Under the pieces are notes generated by a model. That model saw only the letters and a program-made list of their open reading frames with translations, did no database searches and was not told where the DNA came from. DNA of 48,045 bases, from positions 1 to 48,045 of the forward strand of contig JAAYVF010000003.1 in assembly GCA_012517325.1 (NCBI GenBank), in the 5' to 3' direction. Of the stretch, positions 18,960 to 33,976 are shown piece after piece (within the stretch, counting starts at the first letter, position 1; each line of letters starts with the position of its first letter). A program made the translations under genes and the position numbers. The DNA is from Myxococcales bacterium (GTDB lineage Bacteria; Lernaellota; Lernaellaia; Lernaellales; Lernaellaceae).

Positions 18960-19643
18960 TCAGACTCCGCCATCCAGCACGTAGATCGCCAGATTGGCCA
19001 GCGTGTGCAGCACGATGGGCGCGGCAATCGTGCCCGTGCGCGCCCGCAAAAAACCGAAAAGCAGGCCGGGAAAAAAGACGCTCAGCCGATACAGGCGCGG
19101 TTCGGCGGCCAGGTGCGCGACCGCGAAACAGGCGCTCGCCGCGAGAATCGCCGCGCCGTCCGCGCCGATCAGCGGCCGCGACCGCGCCGGCCAGGCGCGG
19201 CTGAACAGCGTTTGCAGGTAACCGCGAAAAAACACCTCTTCGGGCAGCGCGACGGCCACCAATTGCACCGGCAGGCGGGTGAGCAATCCCAGGTCGAAGC
19301 GCCAGACGGGCGGGCGGTGGCCGGCGACCCGCCAAAACAGCCAGGCGCCCAGCAGAAAAAGCGGCAACGTCACCGCCGCGGCGCCGAAACCCCAACGCAG
19401 ACCGAGGCGCCAATTCCGGGTGGTGAGGCCGAAATCGGCGGCGTTGCGCCCCGAGTAAACGATCAGGCCGAGCGGCAACCAGAGCAGCAGATTGGGGACC
19501 AGCAGGCCGGCGGCGGTTTTCCAGAGCGGCGCCAAGCGGCCGCCGGCGTAAAACAGGGCGATCAACGCCGGCGCGGCGGCGGCGACGATCAAGGCTTCCC
19601 GGGCCGGCCGGGCCGTCAGCCAGCGCATGGCGCGCGATTCCAT
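18960..19643 (-). CDS. CPBP (CAAX/Abi-type) membrane protease
   Basis: 227-aa membrane protein, last gene of the radical-SAM cluster. The ATG at 19643 is preceded by GAGGTGAGC and lies 20 bp after the radical SAM stop. About six hydrophobic helices are visible. The CPBP signature is present: PEEVFFRGYL (motif 1, EExxxR), CFAVAHL (motif 2, FxxxH) and HTLAN (motif 3). CPBP proteases cleave prenylated proteins, process leader peptides or act as immunity factors. In this context it might mature or protect against the cluster's product, which is inference. Confidence 0.8.
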   Translation of the reverse strand: MESRAMRWLTARPAREALIVAAAAPALIALFYAGGRLAPLWKTAAGLLVPNLLLWLPLGLIVYSGRNAADFGLTTRNWRLGLRWGFGAAAVTLPLFLLGAWLFWRVAGHRPPVWRFDLGLLTRLPVQLVAVALPEEVFFRGYLQTLFSRAWPARSRPLIGADGAAILAASACFAVAHLAAEPRLYRLSVFFPGLLFGFLRARTGTIAAPIVLHTLANLAIYVLDGGV

Positions 19644-19663
19644 CAAGCTCACCTCGCCCCGCG

Positions 19664-20761
19664 TCAAATCTTGCAGCAACGGGCGCAGCCGGGCATCAGC
19701 CCTTCCTTCAGCGTCGCCCGGAATTGGCGATACAGCTCGTTGTTCCAGATCGCCGTCAACGGCTCCGTCTTCACGTTGCCGAGCCGCACGTACAGGAACT
19801 GGCAGGGATACACGTCGCCTTGTGCGTTCAAAAACGTGCTGCGCCAGATGAAAAGGCAGCGGCGGTCCAGGCGCGCGTTTTCGCTGTACCAGCGACGGAT
19901 TTCGGCGTCGTTCAAGACGGGCTTGGTCAGCACGCGGTGCCCGGACGGCGTCTGGAGAAATTCGATCAGCGGCGCGAATGCGCCCGTTTCCGGCTCCCAC
20001 TGGTGCGAAAGAATTTGGATCGGCGTCTCCGGGAACCGCGCGGCCCAGAAGCGCTCCTGCGCGGCGAGTTCCGCGGCGGTGAGAAAATTCAGGTGCGACA
20101 GCCGGACCGACAGCGGCTCGATGGCCGCCGTATCCGCGATGAACTGCGGCAAATCGCGGACGCTCGCGGGCGACAAGACGTAGTTCACCATCGCCGTCGA
20201 GCGCGCCTTCTGCGCGGCCCACAACCGCAGGGCCGCCAGCGAGCGGTCGTACGCGCCCGGCAGGCCGACGGCACGATCGTGGGTTTCGCGCGCGCCGTGA
20301 AAACTGACCATAAACGCGTCCAGGCCCAGGCCGGCGAGCCGCTCGACGGCGGCGACGGTCACCAGCGTGCCGTTCGTGACCAGCCCGACGGGCAGCCCGT
20401 GGCCCTTGAAACTTTCGACGATCGCCACCAGATCCGGGCGGGTGAAGGGCTCGCCGCCGGAAATGAAGATGCCCGGCCGGTACGGCGCCCAGTCGGCCGC
20501 CAATCGCTGGTATTGTTCGAGCGTCAGTTCGTCGGCGAGCGGCACGCGGTTTTCGTGATTGAAGCAGTACGGGCATTGCAGATTGCAGCGCGTCGTCACG
20601 TTGAGGTTGAGGACGAACGGAAAGGCGTTGGCGCGGCCGCCGCGTCGGGCCAGTTGGGCCGGCAGGATCAGCAAATCGCCGATCGTCCGCGCCAGCGGAA
20701 AGAAGGGGCGGAAGTTTCGCAGATTGGTGAGCTGCGACTCCAATTTCGTCCAGAGACTCAC
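19664..20761 (-). CDS. Stand-alone radical SAM / SPASM-like enzyme
   Basis: 365-aa enzyme. The GTG at 20761 is chosen because it overlaps the upstream stop (GTGA) and has GGAGG 7-11 nt before it. The radical SAM cluster motif is CNLQCPYC (Cys59, 63, 66), followed by ISGGEPFTRPDL and LVTNGTL. The C-terminus has further Cys residues (RRCLFIW, DVYPCQFLY, PGCARCCKI) and the phrase LGNVKTEPLTAIWNNE, typical of SPASM/twitch auxiliary Fe-S domains used in peptide or sugar modification. Unlike the two upstream fusions it lacks the NNxCLxCW pattern, so it is a distinct subfamily. Substrate unknown. Confidence 0.88.
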   Translation of the reverse strand: MSLWTKLESQLTNLRNFRPFFPLARTIGDLLILPAQLARRGGRANAFPFVLNLNVTTRCNLQCPYCFNHENRVPLADELTLEQYQRLAADWAPYRPGIFISGGEPFTRPDLVAIVESFKGHGLPVGLVTNGTLVTVAAVERLAGLGLDAFMVSFHGARETHDRAVGLPGAYDRSLAALRLWAAQKARSTAMVNYVLSPASVRDLPQFIADTAAIEPLSVRLSHLNFLTAAELAAQERFWAARFPETPIQILSHQWEPETGAFAPLIEFLQTPSGHRVLTKPVLNDAEIRRWYSENARLDRRCLFIWRSTFLNAQGDVYPCQFLYVRLGNVKTEPLTAIWNNELYRQFRATLKEGLMPGCARCCKI

Positions 20762-23430
20762 CCGTCCTCCTGGCCGACGATCCACCGTCGCAGTTGAGCC
20801 TTTTCATCCGCCGTGAGCGCCGTCAGGCGCCGGTGAAATTCGCGGTTGTGCATCAGGTTGTCGCAGGTGCGGTGACAGCCGATCGCCGCGAAGTACGGAT
20901 GCCGTTTCGATTCGTGCGCGGCCATCCGGCGGAATTCGCGGTAGGGTTCGCCGTGCCAGATTTCCGCGAATGATCGTTCGCCCAGCCGTCCCAAAGGCAA
21001 ATTCACCCCACGGCAGCAGGGCGCCACTTCGCCGGTCGGCAACACCCGCGCGAACATCCAGCCCACGTAGCAGGGAATCTCCTCGACCGCCTCGCGATCG
21101 TACTCGCCGCGTGCCGCGCCCAGCGCGCGCAGGCGCCGCCGGAAGCCGCCCCAGTTGTCGAGGCGGAACCGTTCGCCGGCGGCCGCCAATTCCGCGGCGC
21201 GCCGCTCGATTTCGTCGAGATGGCCTTCGAGAACCTTCAGGTGCGGTGGCGTCAGCAACAGGCCGTCGGTCCGCAAGTGCACCGAATCGACGAGCGTGAA
21301 GTAAGCCCCGTCGGCGCCGACGCGCCGGGCGAAGTCGAACATCTCGCGGGTTTCCTGGTAGTTCATCGAAAACAGCACGTTCGCCAGAATGACCTCGGCC
21401 CCCGGCCCCTTCAGCGAGCAATAGAGCCGCAGCAGGCGCTCGATCCGCGCAAACGTCGCCTCGGTCTTGTTCGGATGGCTGCGGCTGTAGACCGCCGGCG
21501 TCCCCGCCCACAGACTGACGGTGAGCTCGTCGAGCCCGGCCGCCGCGAGGCGCCGCACGCCCGCTTCGTCGATCGCGCTGAAATTGGTGGTCAGCGCGCC
21601 GATCATGCCGTGACGCTTGATCGCCTCGACCGCCTCGAAAATCGCCGGATGCAAAAGCGGCTCGCCGCCGCCGGTCAGGCGGACGCGGCGCGTGCCGAGC
21701 GCGGCCAGTTCGTCGATCAGGCCCAGCAGCAGCGGCGCGGGCATCTGCCGCCGGTGCCAGTTTTCCGGCGGGCCGAACTCGCCCAACAGCGGCGAGTTGG
21801 TCCAACACGGCAGGCAGTTGTTGTTGCAGCGGTTGGTCGGATCGATGACCACCTGCTCCGGGCCGACGAATGCGCGTTCGCCGTCCAGCGCCCCGGCCAG
21901 ATCGCGATGGTCGTCGAGAAATTTTTTAAACTCGGGCGCGTGCCGTTCCGCGGCCGTTTCGCTGCGCGGCGCGGCGGTCGCGCGAAGGCAATACGACTCG
22001 ATCGGCGCGCCGCGGGAAACGAAGCGGTAGCGTACGGCCGCGCCGACCGGCACGGGCAATTCGGCCCGCCAACGGCGCGTCGCCGGGTCATAGGCCATCG
22101 CCGCCGTTTGCTCCGCGCCCTCGCCGACCGCGTAATACACCGTCACCTCGCGCGTCTCCGGAATCGCCGCCAGGTATTCGACCGGCAACCGGCCGGCGGC
22201 CAAGGCGTCGACAAACGAACCGCATTCCGCGTCGCCGTAGGTCCGCCCCGTGGCGGCGCTTCGCATCGTCCATTGTTTTTCCGCCGGCAAGCCGGCCAGC
22301 ACGTAATCGGCGAACAGGGCAAAGCCGAGCGCCAGGCCGTCGTCGCTCGCCGCCGGCTGAATGAAAATGTTTTGAAAGCCGGTTTGCGCGAGGATCTTTT
22401 GATTGGCCACGCTGTTGAGCCCGACGCCGCCCGCCACGCACAGGTTCGGGCTTTGCGTCTGGTCGAACAAGTGCGCCGCCACGTGCACCAGCGCTTCCTC
22501 GAGCCGGTGTTGCAGCGACCAGGCGAATTGCTGGTCGCGCGCGGTGATCGGCTCGTCGGGGGCGCGCGCGGCGCCGAATGTTTCGAACCACCGCGGCGCG
22601 AGACGGGACAGCGAAACCGGGTCCTCCAGCACGCGGTCGCCCGACCAGAAGCGCAGCCAGTCTGGATTCAGCCGCAAACCGCCGCCGTTTTCCAGCGTAA
22701 GGATTGCGGCGAACGCCGCGTCGAATTCGTTCGGCCCGCCGTAGCCCGCCAGACCCATCAGGCTGCCTTCCTCCATGCTGAGAAAATGCGCGCCGATGGC
22801 GTACAAATAGCCGAGGCTGGATTCGGCGAGCCGGCTCTCGAGGCCCACCAGCACTTCGCCGCGTACGAAGTGCCCGAGGGTCAGACTCTCGGCCGGATAA
22901 TTGCGGGCGTCCGCGGCCGGTTCGGCGGCCAGCAGGTCGGCCGCCGTCGGATGCCGGCGCGCCGCCGAATAGCCGCGCGCGCGAAACGCCAGGTCGCCCG
23001 GCACGAAACCCCAACGGCCGCGATCCGGCACCAGCGGCGCGATGCCGCCCGAGGCGTCGACCGTCAGCACCGCCGCTTCGTCGAACGGGCTGGGCAGAAA
23101 CGCGCCGGCGGCGTGTCCCAGGTGATGATCGAGCAAGACGATCCGCGCCGGATCGGGAAAATCAGGGAACAGCGCGATCGGCGGATGTCCGGCAGGCGGA
23201 TAATAATACGCCGTGTCGGCCGCGATGAGGTCGACATCCGCCAGGGCGATGCCGGCCTCGGCCAGCACGTAGTTTAGGGCGCGGCGCAGGCTGTTGCGCG
23301 GGTCGCCGCGCCGCACACGGCACAGGCGTTCCTCGTTGATCGCCGCCACCGGCCGACCGTCGGCCAGCAGGGACACCGCGCTGTCGTGGTCGCTGACCAC
23401 GGCGCCGAGCACGTACCGCGGCTTACTCAT
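20758..23430 (-). CDS. Carbamoyltransferase N-domain fused to radical SAM/SPASM domain
   Basis: 890-aa fusion. Residues 1 to about 375 are the Kae1/TobZ-like N-terminal domain of NodU/CmcH/TobZ O-carbamoyltransferases: start VVSDHDSAVSLLADGRPVAA, metal-site DHHLGHAAGAF (101-111), ATP-binding GGVGLNSVANQ (334-344). The usual C-terminal carbamoyltransferase domain is missing here and is encoded by the gene just upstream. Residues about 425-485 resemble a small beta-sandwich/carbohydrate-binding-type module (VYYAVGEGAE, WRAELPVPVGAAVRYRF). From about 515 comes a radical SAM domain with C535NNNC539LPC542W, TGGGEP (586-591) and C-terminal auxiliary Cys (787, 805, 806, 852, 856). The start overlaps the C-domain gene by 8 nt. 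It should transfer a carbamoyl group and carry out a radical step on the same or a related substrate. Confidence 0.85.
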   Translation of the reverse strand: MSKPRYVLGAVVSDHDSAVSLLADGRPVAAINEERLCRVRRGDPRNSLRRALNYVLAEAGIALADVDLIAADTAYYYPPAGHPPIALFPDFPDPARIVLLDHHLGHAAGAFLPSPFDEAAVLTVDASGGIAPLVPDRGRWGFVPGDLAFRARGYSAARRHPTAADLLAAEPAADARNYPAESLTLGHFVRGEVLVGLESRLAESSLGYLYAIGAHFLSMEEGSLMGLAGYGGPNEFDAAFAAILTLENGGGLRLNPDWLRFWSGDRVLEDPVSLSRLAPRWFETFGAARAPDEPITARDQQFAWSLQHRLEEALVHVAAHLFDQTQSPNLCVAGGVGLNSVANQKILAQTGFQNIFIQPAASDDGLALGFALFADYVLAGLPAEKQWTMRSAATGRTYGDAECGSFVDALAAGRLPVEYLAAIPETREVTVYYAVGEGAEQTAAMAYDPATRRWRAELPVPVGAAVRYRFVSRGAPIESYCLRATAAPRSETAAERHAPEFKKFLDDHRDLAGALDGERAFVGPEQVVIDPTNRCNNNCLPCWTNSPLLGEFGPPENWHRRQMPAPLLLGLIDELAALGTRRVRLTGGGEPLLHPAIFEAVEAIKRHGMIGALTTNFSAIDEAGVRRLAAAGLDELTVSLWAGTPAVYSRSHPNKTEATFARIERLLRLYCSLKGPGAEVILANVLFSMNYQETREMFDFARRVGADGAYFTLVDSVHLRTDGLLLTPPHLKVLEGHLDEIERRAAELAAAGERFRLDNWGGFRRRLRALGAARGEYDREAVEEIPCYVGWMFARVLPTGEVAPCCRGVNLPLGRLGERSFAEIWHGEPYREFRRMAAHESKRHPYFAAIGCHRTCDNLMHNREFHRRLTALTADEKAQLRRWIVGQEDG

Positions 23431-24049
23431 GGCCGTCCGCCTTGGTCACCAGCAGCGGGCCGACGGCCAGCGCGTCGACCGCCGTCGTCGCGAAACACTG
23501 GTAGGCGTCCAGCGGCGTTTCGACGATCGGCTCGCCGTGATCGTTGAAACTGGTGTTGAGCAGGATCGGCACGCCGGTCAGGGCATGCCATTTTTCGAGC
23601 AGCGTCCGGAAGGGTCCCTCGCCCGGCGCGACGGTTTGCACGCGCGCGGTGCCGTCGGCGTGCACGATGGCCGGCACCACGGCGCGTTTTTCAGGCCGGA
23701 CCGGCGCGACCAAAAGCATGAACGGGCTGGGCGCGGTCAGTTCGAACCACTCGGCAAGCCGCTCGATCAGCACGGCGGGCGCGTAGGGCCGGAACCACTG
23801 GCGGTGCTTGACGGTTTCGTTCAAGCGGTCGTGCATCCGCGGATCGCGTGGGTCGGCCAGGATACTCCGGCAGCCGAGCGCGCGCGGGCCGAACTCGGCG
23901 CCGCCCTGAAACCAGCCGACGATCCGCCCGGCGTCGAGCAGGCACGCCACGCGGTCGGCCAGGTCCGCCGGCCGTTCCACCCGCAACGGAAGGTTGGGCA
24001 CGCGCCAGCCGCGTCCGGCGCGGTCGTCGGAGTAGATAAAGTCGCTCAT
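23423..24049 (-). CDS. Detached C-terminal domain of a NodU/TobZ-type carbamoyltransferase
   Basis: 208-aa protein consisting almost solely of the carbamoyltransferase C-terminal domain: GRIVGWFQGGAEFGPRALG, CRSILADPRDPRMHDRLN, KHRQWFRPYAPAVL and LNTSFNDHGEPIVETP are all characteristic. In the standard enzyme this YrdC-like domain, which makes carbamoyl-adenylate, follows the Kae1-like domain in one chain. Here it has its own ATG (24049, overlapping the upstream stop by ATGA) and precedes the N-domain gene, an inverted order. The 8-nt overlap with the N-domain gene suggests equimolar synthesis and a two-chain enzyme. All recognisable motifs are retained, so it should be functional. Confidence 0.88.
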   Translation of the reverse strand: MSDFIYSDDRAGRGWRVPNLPLRVERPADLADRVACLLDAGRIVGWFQGGAEFGPRALGCRSILADPRDPRMHDRLNETVKHRQWFRPYAPAVLIERLAEWFELTAPSPFMLLVAPVRPEKRAVVPAIVHADGTARVQTVAPGEGPFRTLLEKWHALTGVPILLNTSFNDHGEPIVETPLDAYQCFATTAVDALAVGPLLVTKADGHE

Positions 24050-26559
24050 CGTCCCGCCCGTCCGACGGCCAGGCCGCGCGCCCGCAGCCAGACCGCCGCG
24101 CCCTTCAGCACGGCGCGTTGCAGCGGCGTCATCGCCCGGTAACGCCCGACCAGATGTTCGATGCGGCCCAGGTCATCGCACGATTTGTAGCAGCCCACCG
24201 CCGCCGCGGGGTCGTTGCCGAGGTTGGCGAACCACGGCCCGCGTTTTTCCAGCACGTTCGTCCGGCGCCGCCAATCGGCCTGCCGTTCGCCGGCCCACAA
24301 ATCGCGAAACCGCGTCGTCGCCAGATTTCCGGCCGGAATGCGATGCGCCTTCAGGCATTGGTTGACGTTGCCGTCGGCCAGCACCCGCGCGAACTGCCAG
24401 CCCACCGTGCAGGGCATCGCGTCGATGATCGTCTTGTCGTGCTCGCCGGTCGTCGTGTGCGCGCCGGAAATGCGGCGCAGAAACTGCTCGTACTTGAACA
24501 GGTGCGGCGCGCCCGGCCCTTCGGCCGCCACCTCGGCGCGCACGCGCTGCGCCTCTTCGTAAAGCCACCGGCGCTGCTCCTCGTCGAGCAGCAGGGTGTC
24601 GGTGCGCTCGGGAATGACGTCGAGCACGGTGAATTCCACGCTTTCCGACCGCGTGCGCCGCGCCAGGTCGACCATCGCCCGCAGTTCGCGGTAATTCAGG
24701 TTGTTGAGGACGTGGTAAATCTTGATGTACGGCACCTGTCGCTTGCCGCCGTTGAGCAGCCGCAGCATGGCCTCGATCCGGTGGTAGGTTTCCTCGGTCT
24801 TGTTCGGGTGCAGGAGGCTGTACATCTCGGGCGACCCCGCCCAAACCGAAACCGTCAGGTAGTCGACGCGCTGCTCGATCAGAAAGCGCACCGTATCCTC
24901 GTCGACGAGCGTGAAGTTGGTGTTGATGTTGCACACCAGGCCGCGCTTTTTAATTTCGGTGATGATCGCGCGGATGTCCGGGTGGCAGAACGGCTCGCCG
25001 CCGCCCGCGAGGTACACTTCCTTGCTGCCCAGCGCCGTCATGTCGTCGAGCAGGTCGATGATCCGCGGCAGCGGCAGCGTCGCCTCGCGCTGCGGGCTGG
25101 GCAGCGCCTTGTCCAGCAGCAACGGGCTGTTGCACCAGCAGGCCAGGCAGTCGTTGTTACAGCGGTTGGTCGGGTCGATCTGCACCGTGTGCGGCCCGAC
25201 GAAGCTGCGCTCGCCGTCGAGCACTCCGACGATGTCGAGGTTGGCCAGCACGAAATCGTTCAGGCGCCGGAAGGGATCTTCCGGCTGATCGAGCGGCCCG
25301 GCGGCGACCGTTGGCGGCTCGCCCGGCATGGCGCGATAGTCGGGGATGGCTAGCTCAGGGCTTTTTTTTTTCGGCTCGTCGATCTTCCAGAACAGCCAGC
25401 GGCGTTCGTGCAACGCGACTTCGTAGGCCAGCAGGAGGTTTTCGGCGGTGGCGCCCCAGTTGTACTGCGATTCGGCGCGGCGGCGGGCCTTGGCGCCCAG
25501 TTCGCGAACCAGCGCCGGATCGCCCAGCAGGCGCTCGATGCCCTCGGCCAGTTCCGTCGGGTTGCCCGGCGCGACCAGCAGGCCGGCGTCGCCCAGCATC
25601 CGCGGCACCTCGCCGACCCGGCTGGCGACCACCGCTTTGCCCGCCGCCATGTATTCGGCGATTTTCAGCGGGCTCTTGGTGCGGGTTTGCGCGTTGTCCT
25701 CGAAGCAGGCGACCACCGCGTCGGCCGCCGCGAGGTACTCGGGAATTTCCTGGTGGTTGACCGCGCCGGTGAAAACGATGCGGTTGCCGATGCGCAGTTG
25801 TTCGGTCAGTTGAAACAGTTCGCCGAACCGGTCGCCGCCGCCGACCACGACGAAGGTCGCCGGCGAGCCGCGCTCGATCAGCGCCTTGGCGGCGTGCAAA
25901 AACAGCTCGAGGTATTGCGCGCCGTGCAACTGGCCGAGGTAGAGCACGACCGGCCCCTCGAGGTGATGCAGCGCCCGCACGCGCTCGCCGGAAATATCGG
26001 GGCGGAAATGATCGAGGTCGGCGCCGACCGGCGCGGCGAACAACCGCTGCTCGGGGACGCCCAGCGCCAGCGCCCGCTCCTTCAGGGCTTCCGAGGCGAC
26101 GCTGACGGTATCGACCAGGCGCGGCAGAATTTTCTCGAAGGTATTGATGGACCAGCCGACGATCCGGTTGTTGGGATTGTAGTTGAAAATGCCGTATTCC
26201 CAATCGTCCCAATCGTAGTGCACGGGCTTGCCCAGGCGGTAACCGGCCCAGATCGCCGGGACGCTGACGTGCGGAAAACACTTCTGAAAATGAATGACGT
26301 CGGCCCACCGCGCGAACTCGTGGGCGCTGCGCATCTTGGCCACCAGCGCCAGTTGGTAGCGGTAGGCGGGGATGGTCGTGAACGGGAAATCCTGCCGCTG
26401 GGTCGCTTCCTCCAGCGGGATTCGCGGATCGAGCAGATGGTAGATCAGCCGCACGTGATGGCCGCGTTTGACGAACTCCGTCGCCAGGTAGGTGATGCGG
26501 ACCGTCCACGGCTCCGAATCGGAGTACACGTCGTGTGGATGGAACATCAGGATGTTCAT
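24046..26559 (-). CDS. Glycosyltransferase family 4 fused to radical SAM/SPASM domain
   Basis: 837-aa fusion. Residues 1 to about 390 form a GT-B fold GT4 enzyme: N-terminus MNILMFHPHDVYSDSEP, PVGADLDHFRP, LYLGQLHGAQYLELF, then SPLKIAEYMAAGKAVVAS carrying the E-x7-E type donor region. A linker (about 391-440) contains three Lys encoded by ten consecutive A's (complement of 25362-25371). The radical SAM domain has C467NNDC471LAC474W, a GGGEP motif (about 519-523) and auxiliary Cys at 717, 735, 790 and 794. The segment LDGERSFVGP plus DPTNRCNND is closely similar to the carbamoyltransferase fusion, so the radical SAM halves are paralogues. The start abuts the upstream stop. It probably glycosylates and oxidatively modifies one substrate. 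Confidence 0.85.
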   Translation of the reverse strand: MNILMFHPHDVYSDSEPWTVRITYLATEFVKRGHHVRLIYHLLDPRIPLEEATQRQDFPFTTIPAYRYQLALVAKMRSAHEFARWADVIHFQKCFPHVSVPAIWAGYRLGKPVHYDWDDWEYGIFNYNPNNRIVGWSINTFEKILPRLVDTVSVASEALKERALALGVPEQRLFAAPVGADLDHFRPDISGERVRALHHLEGPVVLYLGQLHGAQYLELFLHAAKALIERGSPATFVVVGGGDRFGELFQLTEQLRIGNRIVFTGAVNHQEIPEYLAAADAVVACFEDNAQTRTKSPLKIAEYMAAGKAVVASRVGEVPRMLGDAGLLVAPGNPTELAEGIERLLGDPALVRELGAKARRRAESQYNWGATAENLLLAYEVALHERRWLFWKIDEPKKKSPELAIPDYRAMPGEPPTVAAGPLDQPEDPFRRLNDFVLANLDIVGVLDGERSFVGPHTVQIDPTNRCNNDCLACWCNSPLLLDKALPSPQREATLPLPRIIDLLDDMTALGSKEVYLAGGGEPFCHPDIRAIITEIKKRGLVCNINTNFTLVDEDTVRFLIEQRVDYLTVSVWAGSPEMYSLLHPNKTEETYHRIEAMLRLLNGGKRQVPYIKIYHVLNNLNYRELRAMVDLARRTRSESVEFTVLDVIPERTDTLLLDEEQRRWLYEEAQRVRAEVAAEGPGAPHLFKYEQFLRRISGAHTTTGEHDKTIIDAMPCTVGWQFARVLADGNVNQCLKAHRIPAGNLATTRFRDLWAGERQADWRRRTNVLEKRGPWFANLGNDPAAAVGCYKSCDDLGRIEHLVGRYRAMTPLQRAVLKGAAVWLRARGLAVGRAGR
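25362..25371 (-). promoter_or_regulatory. A10 homopolymer slippage-prone site in the GT/radical SAM linker
   Basis: The coding strand has ten consecutive A's (codons for Lys397-399 and part of Ser400) in a GC-rich gene. In frame the reading continues into the radical SAM domain. Adding one A (or losing two) gives a TGA two codons after the run; losing one gives a TAG three codons after it. Transcriptional or ribosomal slippage would thus release a 401-402 aa stand-alone glycosyltransferase. The run is seen directly; its use as a recoding site is inference. Confidence 0.45.
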
Positions 26560-27354
26560 CTACGTCCCCGGAAACACTTTCACGCCGGCGCGCTTTTCGT
26601 AGCGTTTCATGTACACGTTGGTGATCAGGTTGACCGCGAACAGCACGCCCAGCGCGGGAAGCTGCCACAGCCAGCGGCGCAATCGCCAATGCAGGCACCG
26701 CCACCGTTTCAGGCCGGAATCGCCGACGAAATCGGCGAGCCGCCGCTCCTGCCAACCCGTCCGCCGCCGCAGTTGCGCGGCCTCGCCGGCGAGATCGCGC
26801 GCCTGGCGCTGGGTTTTTTGCAGGTCGCCGCGCAGCCGGTCGGCTTCCGCCAGGCGTTCGGTCAGGGCGCGGCGCGCGTTTTCGGCCTCGGCCTGGGCTT
26901 CGCGCCACGCGTTTTCCATCGCCTGCAGTCGTTGCGCCTGCCGCGCGATCTTGTCGGCCAGTTCGCCGAACCGCTTTTCGGCGCCGTCGACGTAATGCTC
27001 TTTCTCGTGGACCGCCCGCTCCAATTCGACCAGCTTGGCGGCCATTCCGGCGCTCAGTTCGTCGCGCTCGCTTTCCATGGCCTGCCGGTCGGCGCGAGCC
27101 TGCCGAATATCGTTTTGCAGCGCGGCCAGCCGTGTCTCGGCCTCTTCCGCCCGCCGGCGGGTTTCGGCCAGGTCGCTTTCGGTTATGGCCAGCGCGGCGC
27201 GCAACTCCGTCGCGCGGCTCTCGTCGGCCGCGGCCAGAGTGTCGAGTTTTTCGCCGAGGCGCCGGATCTCGGCGACGAGCTCCTGCTCGTGCGCCGAAGG
27301 GTTCCGGTCGCCGTTTTCTCCGTTTGCCACGCTTGGTTCCAACCCGTCCATCAT
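26560..27354 (-). CDS. Coiled-coil protein with C-terminal membrane segment
   Basis: 264 aa if the ATG at 27354 is used; a TTG at 27393 or ATG at 27351 are alternatives. Residues about 20-190 form a near-continuous charged coiled coil (heptad-like ELVAEIRRLGEKLDTL, ESERDELSAGMAAKLVELE). A basic stretch (WRCLHWRLRRWLW) then precedes a single hydrophobic span (LPALGVLFAVNLITNVY) and a basic tail. It resembles tail-anchored scaffold or chain-length-regulator-like proteins, but no defined family is recognised. It is the first gene of the cluster, abutting the GT/radical SAM gene, and may anchor those soluble enzymes at the membrane (inference). Its promoter places the start of transcription almost at the ATG. 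Confidence 0.65.
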   Translation of the reverse strand: MMDGLEPSVANGENGDRNPSAHEQELVAEIRRLGEKLDTLAAADESRATELRAALAITESDLAETRRRAEEAETRLAALQNDIRQARADRQAMESERDELSAGMAAKLVELERAVHEKEHYVDGAEKRFGELADKIARQAQRLQAMENAWREAQAEAENARRALTERLAEADRLRGDLQKTQRQARDLAGEAAQLRRRTGWQERRLADFVGDSGLKRWRCLHWRLRRWLWQLPALGVLFAVNLITNVYMKRYEKRAGVKVFPGT

Positions 27355-27364
27355 TGGTCCGGGG

Positions 27365-27393
27365 ATTCTATGCCAAATAGACCGGTCCCGCAA
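27365..27393 (-). promoter_or_regulatory. Promoter for the radical SAM/carbamoyltransferase cluster
   Basis: On the minus strand TTGCGG (27393-27388) is followed by a 17-bp spacer and TAGAAT (27370-27365, 5 of 6 matches). Transcription would begin near 27358, only a few nt before the ATG at 27354, so the first message may be leaderless or use a later start. It lies downstream of the fad operon terminator, making the cluster an independent unit. Confidence 0.5.
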
Positions 27394-31600: not shown

Positions 31601-33976
31601 TCAATCGATGCTGGCCGCCCGACCTTTGCCCTTTTCCAAATCCTCCAGTGGAATTTGCAAATGCCAGGCGGCGCCGTCGCCCTCATAGACCAGGTGCACG
31701 AGGCCGGCGGCATCGATGGTCATCGCCAGGTCTTGAACCCCGTATTGGAAACCGCGATCCACCGTCGTCAGCCGCCAGGTCAGTCCGGTCTTCACCGCCA
31801 CGATGATGCTGTTGTACTGGGTCTGTTTGACGAACGCCACCACCGGCGTCTCCGTTGGCGACAGAGCGATCGCCGTGCGTTGGTATTGATTGATCCCATC
31901 GGGAATGTTCGTGCGAACCCACTCGCCGTTGCCGGCGATCAGATCGCCCGTCGACATCAGCGTCCCGAAAAAATCCGTCGTATAGGAAACGTAAACCGTG
32001 CCGTCCGCCTTGCGAACCGCGTCGTTGTGGCTGCCCATGCGACGCATCGACGAGATTTCCGGGTCCGGCACCTCGATGGATTCGTGGTTCCAATTGACTC
32101 CAGGCTCACCCGGGTAGAAATAAAACAACGCTTCGTAGTCGACGTCACCGTAAATCGAGTAGCAATGCCACGTGCCCATGATGCCGGGCGTGTTGTCGTC
32201 GGCGAAGAGCAGCGAAACCGAGAAATCCGAGCCTTCGTTCCACCATTGGACGGTTTCGGCCACCCATTCCGGCCCCTTGGTGTAAATCAGCGCGCTATAA
32301 TCCGCAAAGGGGATGGATTCATCGCGGCCGACCGCCGCGACGGCCGGGTTGCCCTCGTTGTCCAAAGCCAGGTCGTAATAGACGAACTCGCCTGGTTCAG
32401 ACGTCGACAACGAACGGGGTTGCCAGTCGCCATCGCGGTTGGTCGCGTAGGTCAGCATGAAACCCCAATAAGCCAGGTGCGCCGCGCCGTCTTCGTCCAC
32501 CACCACCGCCGGCGCCATGCCGTGAGCGTCCACCCAAGAGAAATTCCAAACGGCGGCGCCGCGTCGCGCCAGCCATACTTCCTGGGCGTCGGCTTTGATG
32601 CTCTGCACGCCGACGAAAGGACGGCCATTGCCGTTCAAGGCGATTCCGCCGGCGACCGCCTCGCCCGAATCGTCGATCGGCAACTCCCGCCATTTCTGTT
32701 CGGTTTGTTGGAGTAGGTAAACGCTTCCTTCATCCGAATCGGGATAAAGAATCGTGCTGTTTTCACCGGAAATGTCGATGGCGCTATATTGATATATTTT
32801 TCTCTGGCTTTCGACCGACTCCACATCCCATTGGATATCTCCTTGGATCGCCTTCCAGAGATTATCGGCGTCAACATCATTAAAGAGGATTACACAGTGG
32901 TTCTCTTCATTTATCTCTAATACCGGGATTGAGCTGCGGAGCCCTCCCAAATCAATAGTTTTCAAACTCCAACCTAATTCATTTTTTATTGCAAGACAGT
33001 TTGGTTCATCACCATAAAAGAATAGGTAAACAACATCATCAGGCCCTACGGTAATTGCCTGTCCATTGTTCAATTGCCCATCAACCGCTGTTTCAACAAT
33101 CCAGCCATCAACTGTTTTTGTAGCGTAAGTCAGCTTCCGGAAAATCAGAGAATAAACTAGATGCGGCCGATTCTGGGAATCCAATGCCAAACGTGGTCGA
33201 CATTTTGCGGTGAGGTCTCCCGAATCCACCTCTTCGACCACCCAAGCACCCGAGCGATTGGTGGCATAAAGCGCTTTGTCTTTGTAAACGTCCGGTAAAA
33301 ACGCCGCGTGCAAATAACCCTCGCTATCCGCCTTGAAATCGAATTCGTACAAACCCGTACTCGGCCAATAGGCGTAATCGGCCACCTTTTCGAATTGCCA
33401 TTCGCCGCCGACCTTTCGCGCCACGGCCAACCGATCGTTGACGATATCCTGAAACAAAATGTTCAATTCGCCGTCCGGCTTCACCGCCACCGCCGGCAGG
33501 ACGGCGCCGTGCGCCACCAAATCGCGCGAAACGATCGCGCCGTCCTTGACGTAGGTGACGAACAGCGTCCGGCCCTTGATAAACGCCGCCGCCAGCGTGC
33601 CGTCCGCCAACCGCCCGACGCTCAACCCGTTTTCCCCCGGCACGCCGCCCGCGATCATCTCGATCCGTTTTCGCCCGTCGTCGTAATAAACCAGCGATTC
33701 CGACGGCGAGGTCGTGTCGTCGTTGTCATTATTGTCGTCGTTATCATTATCGTCATTATTGTCGTTATCGTCGTTATCATCGTTATCGTCATCGTCACTA
33801 TCGTCATCGATGCTATCATTATCGTCATTGTCGTCGTTATCGTTATTGTCGTTATTGTCATCATCGCCGCCGGAATCGTCGTCATCGCCGCAAAGGCAGG
33901 AGGAAAGGATAAGGGAGGAAAAAATGACCAAAAGAACCGATAAAATAGGCGTCTTATCCGACAAAATCGCTTGCAT
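31601..33976 (-). CDS. Large Asp-rich lipoprotein with repeated beta-propeller-like domain
   Basis: 791-aa lipoprotein. The signal peptide ends in LSSC (Cys27) and a stretch of about 55 residues made almost wholly of Asp, Asn and Ser follows at once. The rest consists of repeated units of about 45-50 residues with the pattern A-D--G--H-A(A/V) and TYA-----W---V (for example VDEDGAAHLAYWG and DAAGLVHLVYEG), resembling BNR/sialidase-like or exo-alpha propeller repeats. No catalytic motif was identified. GGGTGAG lies upstream of the ATG at 33976. Residues about 255-419 are encoded by noticeably AT-richer DNA than the flanks, hinting at a mosaic origin. Probable surface-exposed binding protein. 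Confidence 0.75.
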   Translation of the reverse strand: MQAILSDKTPILSVLLVIFSSLILSSCLCGDDDDSGGDDDNNDNNDNDDNDDNDSIDDDSDDDDNDDNDDNDNNDDNDNDDNNDNDDTTSPSESLVYYDDGRKRIEMIAGGVPGENGLSVGRLADGTLAAAFIKGRTLFVTYVKDGAIVSRDLVAHGAVLPAVAVKPDGELNILFQDIVNDRLAVARKVGGEWQFEKVADYAYWPSTGLYEFDFKADSEGYLHAAFLPDVYKDKALYATNRSGAWVVEEVDSGDLTAKCRPRLALDSQNRPHLVYSLIFRKLTYATKTVDGWIVETAVDGQLNNGQAITVGPDDVVYLFFYGDEPNCLAIKNELGWSLKTIDLGGLRSSIPVLEINEENHCVILFNDVDADNLWKAIQGDIQWDVESVESQRKIYQYSAIDISGENSTILYPDSDEGSVYLLQQTEQKWRELPIDDSGEAVAGGIALNGNGRPFVGVQSIKADAQEVWLARRGAAVWNFSWVDAHGMAPAVVVDEDGAAHLAYWGFMLTYATNRDGDWQPRSLSTSEPGEFVYYDLALDNEGNPAVAAVGRDESIPFADYSALIYTKGPEWVAETVQWWNEGSDFSVSLLFADDNTPGIMGTWHCYSIYGDVDYEALFYFYPGEPGVNWNHESIEVPDPEISSMRRMGSHNDAVRKADGTVYVSYTTDFFGTLMSTGDLIAGNGEWVRTNIPDGINQYQRTAIALSPTETPVVAFVKQTQYNSIIVAVKTGLTWRLTTVDRGFQYGVQDLAMTIDAAGLVHLVYEGDGAAWHLQIPLEDLEKGKGRAASID

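Follow-up and report, generated by a model that had tools for sequence, protein, structure and literature searches.

A conserved Lernaellota gene cluster in which a glycosyltransferase and a split carbamoyltransferase are fused to paired radical SAM domains, with a probable role in surface-glycan biosynthesis

Radical SAM (rSAM) enzymes carry out hard chemistry on unreactive carbons, and to our knowledge nearly all of those that have been studied are single enzymes. Three of the nearest relatives of the rSAM domains described here act on sugars or cyclitols (BtrN, BlsE and DesII), and several others act on peptides. Other described systems close to our locus include the GT4 glycosyltransferases and the NodU/TobZ-type carbamoyltransferases (CT), in which the HHxxHA, Asp and C-domain motif residues form the metal and carbamoyl-phosphate site. 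The window, by which we mean the whole stretch of DNA analysed, is the complete contig C3 (48,045 bases) of a 5.25-Mb genome (G000), and contains a six-gene operon on the minus strand (27393-18960) in which each gene either abuts the next or shares 4-8 bp with it.

The operon begins with P0001 (26560..27393), a coiled-coil protein with a C-terminal membrane segment and a conserved tail, for which Pfam returns coiled-coil matches only. It continues with P0002 (24046..26559), in which a GT4 domain is joined through a linker to a type A rSAM domain with a one-cluster SPASM/twitch region (Pfam, AlphaFold, Cys alignment); P0003 (23423..24049), a lone CT C-domain (Pfam, alignment); P0004 (20758..23430), a CT N-domain followed by a beta-rich linker and a type B rSAM domain with SPASM/twitch (Pfam, AlphaFold, Cys alignment); and P0005 (19664..20785), a stand-alone rSAM/SPASM enzyme (rSAM3; Pfam Radical_SAM and SPASM). 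The last gene (18960..19652) encodes a 230-aa intramembrane protease of the CPBP type that belongs to the myxosortase core family (Pfam, Rce1-like, 1e-18; NCBIfam, Mrt_core, 118.3 bits against a cut-off of 100, with no full-length equivalog model at cut-off). All six lie on the minus strand; throughout, A denotes the GT4-linked and B the CT-linked rSAM domain. Every domain that an earlier note on this DNA had named scores above its Pfam curated cut-off, and the coordinates given there are correct overall, except that one open reading frame (18960-20807) had merged the CPBP gene with an overlapping frame. The start of P0005 is more likely the GTG at 20761, because its homologues begin at xSLWTKL.

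In P0002 the GT4 domain, of the 'HPHD' family, spans residues 1-385, a disordered linker about 390-426, and rSAM-A 434-837 (Glyco_trans_1_4, 3e-28; Radical_SAM, 5e-18; SPASM, 9e-7). The AlphaFold model consists of two ordered domains without a fixed relative orientation, with a linker pLDDT below 50. The GT4 part has both the GT4 Pfam domains and a GT-B fold (TM to target about 0.8), and its best NCBIfam match is TIGR04063. Upstream of it, P0001 ends in the tail motif ..N.[TS]N.YM...(I/V)FPG[TM] and corresponds by homology to the C-terminal region of an 818-aa GT-coiled-coil protein encoded in genome G001; homologues also sit upstream of GT4-A in L084, L086, L096, L097, L098 and L107. P0001 represents a shortened version of a GT-coiled-coil-membrane protein which regularly stands upstream as a partner. 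The idea that it might be a complete and specific membrane tether is weakened, since a GT domain forms part of its homologues; what matches this domain best in the window genome is a separate GT-coiled-coil protein on contig C122.

The proposal that two different enzymes are each fused to related rSAM/SPASM domains is confirmed both by Pfam and by the identity of the two halves (39-42%; BLASTP E=1e-86), which have in common, exactly as had been noted, the motifs LDGER(S/A)FVGP, DPTNRCNN-CL-CW and NSPLL. Both have the CxxxCxxC motif in a partial TIM barrel (Pfam, structure model, alignment) and auxiliary Fe-S cysteines beyond the barrel. Among the type A domains aligned, C717, C735, C790 and C794 are present in 23/23 and CxxxCxxC in 22/23; among those of type B, three radical cysteines and five auxiliary-domain cysteines, including C787, C805, C852 and C856, are present in 23/23. 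The four auxiliary cysteines of each type are enough for one auxiliary cluster, and not for the full two-cluster SPASM set. The AlphaFold model of rSAM-B (pLDDT 93.4) has SkfB, DesII, SuiB and BlsE as its nearest folds, with anSME also among the neighbours, while the best solved relatives by profile are BtrN (auxiliary domain), MoaA and BlsE. By sequence only the auxiliary domain of BtrN is matched, and by fold the TM to target is 0.64, short of the whole-enzyme homology expected of a BtrN-type dehydrogenase, and all NCBIfam matches of the rSAM domains fall far below cut-off. Since the fold neighbours include both sugar-active and peptide-active enzymes, the fold alone cannot decide the substrate.

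P0004 consists of a CT N-domain (residues 1-415), a small beta-rich linker with a weak CBM_56 hint (416-480) and rSAM-B (503-890), with Pfam E-values of 4e-40 for Carbam_trans_N, 3e-15 for Radical_SAM and 3e-11 for SPASM; P0003 matches Carbam_trans_C at 4e-66. Residues 1-372 of P0004 align with the N-domains of TobZ and GdmN, and P0003 with TobZ 390-573, confirming that a NodU/TobZ-type enzyme is split here and that its missing C-domain is the product of a separate gene; Carbam_trans_N and Carbam_trans_C are thus both present, on two polypeptides. The HHLGHA sequence (HHxxHA), D125 and the ASDDG region of P0004 align with GdmN and show little or no variation across five genomes, and the P0003 motifs E.GPRALG.RS and VK.R.W.RP.AP align with TobZ. 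Within the window genome, the full-length CT nearest to both halves is the same enzyme on contig C41 (59% identity for C, 35% for N), as would fit the splitting of a single ancestral CT; the C-then-N order could stem from a tandem duplication followed by loss of the outer domains.

The cluster is shared by a whole phylum, GTDB FEN-1099, or Candidatus Lernaellota (PMC11382960). The full-length relatives recovered by our genome scan come from fen_1099 and FR-FEN-1099 MAGs, and the GT4/CT cluster is present in 7/7 Lernaellota genomes (7 genera, 3 families). The order GT4-A, CT_C, CT_N-B is identical in all seven, so that the P0003-type gene always lies separately between the two fusions, which recur at 50-75% identity; we can therefore reject the possibility that they are assembly artefacts. 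An rSAM3 orthologue follows CT_N-B in 6/7 and was not found beside the cluster in G005. Two of the genomes have incomplete or frameshifted copies: in G002 a contig end leaves just the C-terminal portion of P0002, together with a frameshifted P0004, and in G006 frameshifts in both P0002 and P0004 break the gene calls. The CPBP protease, which the earlier note listed as part of the operon, is peripheral: among the cluster loci examined it occurs only in the window genome and in G001.

Outside Lernaellota, a survey built on two exact peptide patterns yielded 21 loci, of which 20 are informative and one (L116) is cut at a contig end. A and B are fused or adjacent in 20/20 informative loci. In the 14 fused ones, from Omnitrophota, Calescamantes and Caldisericota records, a third rSAM domain (type C) usually stands in front (C-A-B); in the other 6, from Wallbacteria, Cloacimonadota, UBP17, CSMAG_2299 and Gpa_5, a GT4-A fusion is directly followed by a free B, the fusion gene being interrupted in one case (L112). 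The GT4 domains that accompany A/B are of one subfamily, and their fusion to A is seen in Lernaellota as well as in the six loci of the adjacent type. Relatives at E<=1e-60 were found in 49 of a sample of 285 Omnitrophota genomes, in 7/40 genomes of the GTDB phylum into which the Wallbacteria, Cloacimonadota and UBP17 records fall, and in 3/7 Calescibacterota genomes. The type-C rSAM at L109:8930-13252 and its relatives have additional conserved cysteines (C296, C327, C330, C337), which suggests a second auxiliary cluster. In MAG Gpa_5 (L107:17416-19788) a B12-binding rSAM unit is fused to a GT2, beside genes for GT4-A, B and D-E-E-C, where D stands for a SPASM-rSAM and E for a B12-binding rSAM unit.

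The CT fusion is absent from all 21 outside loci, and at E<=1e-60 no match reached the CT_N part in the 40 genomes of the Wallbacteria group or the 7 of Calescibacterota. In 13 genomes of other phyla that were checked, CT C-domains occur on other contigs in ordinary-looking frames, mostly of 530-630 aa (with one short and one 849-aa exception), and the A/B locus has no linked CT. Carbamoylation accordingly does not belong to the ancestral pathway, and its addition in Lernaellota is the history we favour.

The listing of the cluster's contents in the earlier note is accurate for the genes it named; the pathway, however, exceeds the window. In four of the seven genomes (G003-G006) the operon runs on into a second CT, of full length, behind which lies a giant protein. 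The corresponding genes of the window genome are on another contig (C64; L033:6305-14823), where a CT orthologous to that of G003-G006 (55% over 560 aa) precedes a ~2,270-aa protein that contains five rSAM domains, a SPASM-rSAM and four B12-rSAM units, each carrying CxxxCxxC. The combination of D and four E units beside the second CT occurs in 7/7 genomes, mostly as a single polypeptide of about 2,300-2,500 aa (the frame is broken in G006); boundaries of the E units are those of locally built profiles. A protein with two or three E units and a terminal type-C rSAM is present in 6/7 genomes, and in the window genome is a 1,544-aa protein with two (C74; L030:5636-10270). A 912-aa double rSAM/SPASM protein (C5; L029:8529-11267), whose first half is of type A and whose second half is more distant, has homologues in five other genomes of the phylum. 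The window genome also encodes several adjoining rSAM genes with long N-terminal extensions (C85; L032:7767-14421) and a 1,088-aa fusion of a methyltransferase, a GT2 and a GT4 (C13; L031:2591-5857). Proteins with long Asp/Asn-rich low-complexity stretches (DDDNDDND) occur at 31601-33976 of the window and at L138:13302-16001.

From the module set, the fusions, their co-conservation and the catalytic motifs we infer a product and a series of reactions: we believe, with a probability of roughly 0.6, that the operon belongs to a conserved pathway for the assembly and tailoring of a glycan of the cell surface, either a polysaccharide or a glycolipid, with an unusually large rSAM set. The recurring neighbours, namely GTs, ABC polysaccharide exporters, epimerases and B12-rSAM proteins, favour a surface glycan. 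ABC2_membrane and ABC_tran genes, with TagH and galactan Wzt/Wzm as best NCBIfam matches, adjoin C-A-B or A-B; Wzc and Wza lie beside the E-E-C protein of the window genome; two NDP-sugar epimerase/dehydratases stand between B and rSAM3 in G003; and we count on the same side the constant second CT, as well as the presence of sugar-active enzymes among the closest relatives of known structure, namely BtrN and BlsE when judged by sequence and DesII and BlsE when judged by fold. On the other side, none of the enzymes has a close relative that is characterised, the folds include those of SkfB, SuiB and anSME, in the window genome the operon adjoins fatty-acid genes and not other polysaccharide genes, and the A/B locus lacks a linked CT in the other phyla checked.

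According to this scheme, the GT4 of P0002 would transfer a sugar, and the tethered rSAM-A, with one [4Fe-4S] radical cluster and one auxiliary cluster, would act on the same carbohydrate. P0003 and the N-domain of P0004 would assemble into one TobZ-like O-carbamoyltransferase, delivering a carbamoyl group next to rSAM-B. Because A and B are adjacent or fused in every informative lineage, the two may be expected to act on one intermediate, one step after the other. For the tandem B12-rSAM proteins, whose genes lie elsewhere in the same genome, C-methylation or a comparable modification is the probable role, and the finished glycan would leave by ordinary polysaccharide machinery, of the Wza/Wzc type here and of the Wzm/Wzt type in Omnitrophota and Calescibacterota. 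The earlier note's reading of successive glycosylation, carbamoylation and radical chemistry on one substrate is in this way supported as far as the enzyme modules go, while the succession of steps on a glycan is put forward as a proposal.

Some of the same evidence could be read differently. The B12-rSAM units match, below cut-off, the hopanoid and ladderane-type B12-rSAM families, and the fold neighbours of the GT4 include the lipid mannosyltransferases PimA and PimB, as would be expected if B12-rSAM enzymes alkylated or cyclised a lipid, or a lipid-linked small molecule, whose head group were then decorated by the GT4 and the CT. We consider this unlikely, as the surroundings of the loci examined show no recurring genes for lipid biosynthesis and the Wzm/Wzt- and Wza/Wzc-type genes indicate glycan export. 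A RiPP pathway, in which the rSAM/SPASM and B12-rSAM enzymes would modify a precursor peptide that is later glycosylated and carbamoylated, seems to us somewhat less likely still. SPASM domains are typical of peptide maturases, and SkfB, SuiB and anSME are among the nearest folds; the model that gives the B12-rSAM unit of L109 its highest score, still below cut-off, is the RiPP C-methyltransferase TIGR03975, and a myxosortase-like protease is adjacent in two genomes. That protease, however, is not conserved with the cluster, across phyla the neighbouring genes encode polysaccharide transporters, GTs and epimerases, and the operon, whose largest gap is 11 bp, has no room for a precursor gene and contains none, as had been noted before.

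A tree of 66 rSAM domains (23 of type A, 23 of type B) bears on the origin of the pair. The A and B groups each fall on one side of a branch (100/100 and 100/97) and the labelled groups are recovered in all bootstrap samples, although the B clade itself is weaker (93/84) and long branches make it uncertain where several distant paralogues belong; the sister group of A is type C. Both clades also hold Omnitrophota, Wallbacteria/Cloacimonadota and Calescibacterota members, and the A and B domains of the window each group with their Lernaellota orthologues. A recent duplication within the cluster, with fusions peculiar to one genome or assembly, as the 39-42% identity and common motifs might suggest, is refuted by the recurrence of the fusions in 7 genera and by the two separate cross-phylum clades, and we give it almost no weight. 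A and B are instead an old pair, whose separation, judging from the tree, predates the present fusions of these phyla, acquired by descent or transfer.

Returning to the surface-glycan reading, the rSAM set that recurs, differently joined, in several uncultured phyla probably makes an unusual surface sugar. Lernaellota keep polypeptides with up to five rSAM domains and hybrids in which two transferases are joined to rSAM domains, and in other candidate phyla these modules persist, fused in other ways; as parts that are joined now in one way and now in another strongly indicate successive steps, a multi-step radical pathway can be predicted, whose product is probably a surface sugar of uncultured anaerobes and for which defined proteins are available for testing. 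A more tentative possibility, which we hold as a conjecture with less than even odds, is that of a previously undescribed, assembly-line-like glycan biosynthesis, in which ancestral rSAM modules (A, B, C, SPASM-D and repeated B12-rSAM E) have been recombined into different megaproteins in each phylum and carry out successive radical reactions on one tethered intermediate, covalently coupled in Lernaellota to glycosyl and carbamoyl transfer. In the open-licence literature we found no description of such fusions or loci, and we know of no described Wzm/Wzt or Wza/Wzc locus with eight or more rSAM domains.

The comparison with known systems can be drawn module by module. The GT4 of P0002 has the GT-B fold in common with XrtA/PEP-CTERM stp3, MshA, BshA and PimA, but belongs to a distinct subfamily starting with ILM(I/V/L)HPHD and, in Lernaellota and in the Wallbacteria-type loci, is tethered by a disordered linker to an rSAM domain. 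Relative to TobZ, GdmN and NodU (PF02543 and PF16861), both domains and the HHxxHA and Asp positions are kept, whereas here they are divided between two genes, C before N, and the N-domain is fused to an rSAM domain, from which the beta-rich linker separates it, and not to its own C-domain. The CxxxCxxC motif and the C-x17-C ... C-x3-C auxiliary set align with the auxiliary domain of BtrN, yet identity to BtrN, BlsE and DesII is low, even though the latter two are among the nearest folds of rSAM-B, and the domains here are fused to GT4 or CT_N, as an A/B pair. B12-binding rSAM C-methyltransferases have the same B12-binding and rSAM domains, which here are repeated two to four times along one chain, often with a SPASM-rSAM at its head or a type-C rSAM at its end. 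Finally, the transporter types are those of Wzm/Wzt and Wza/Wzc surface-polysaccharide loci, but they stand beside rSAM modules, and the module set around them comprises at least eight rSAM domains.
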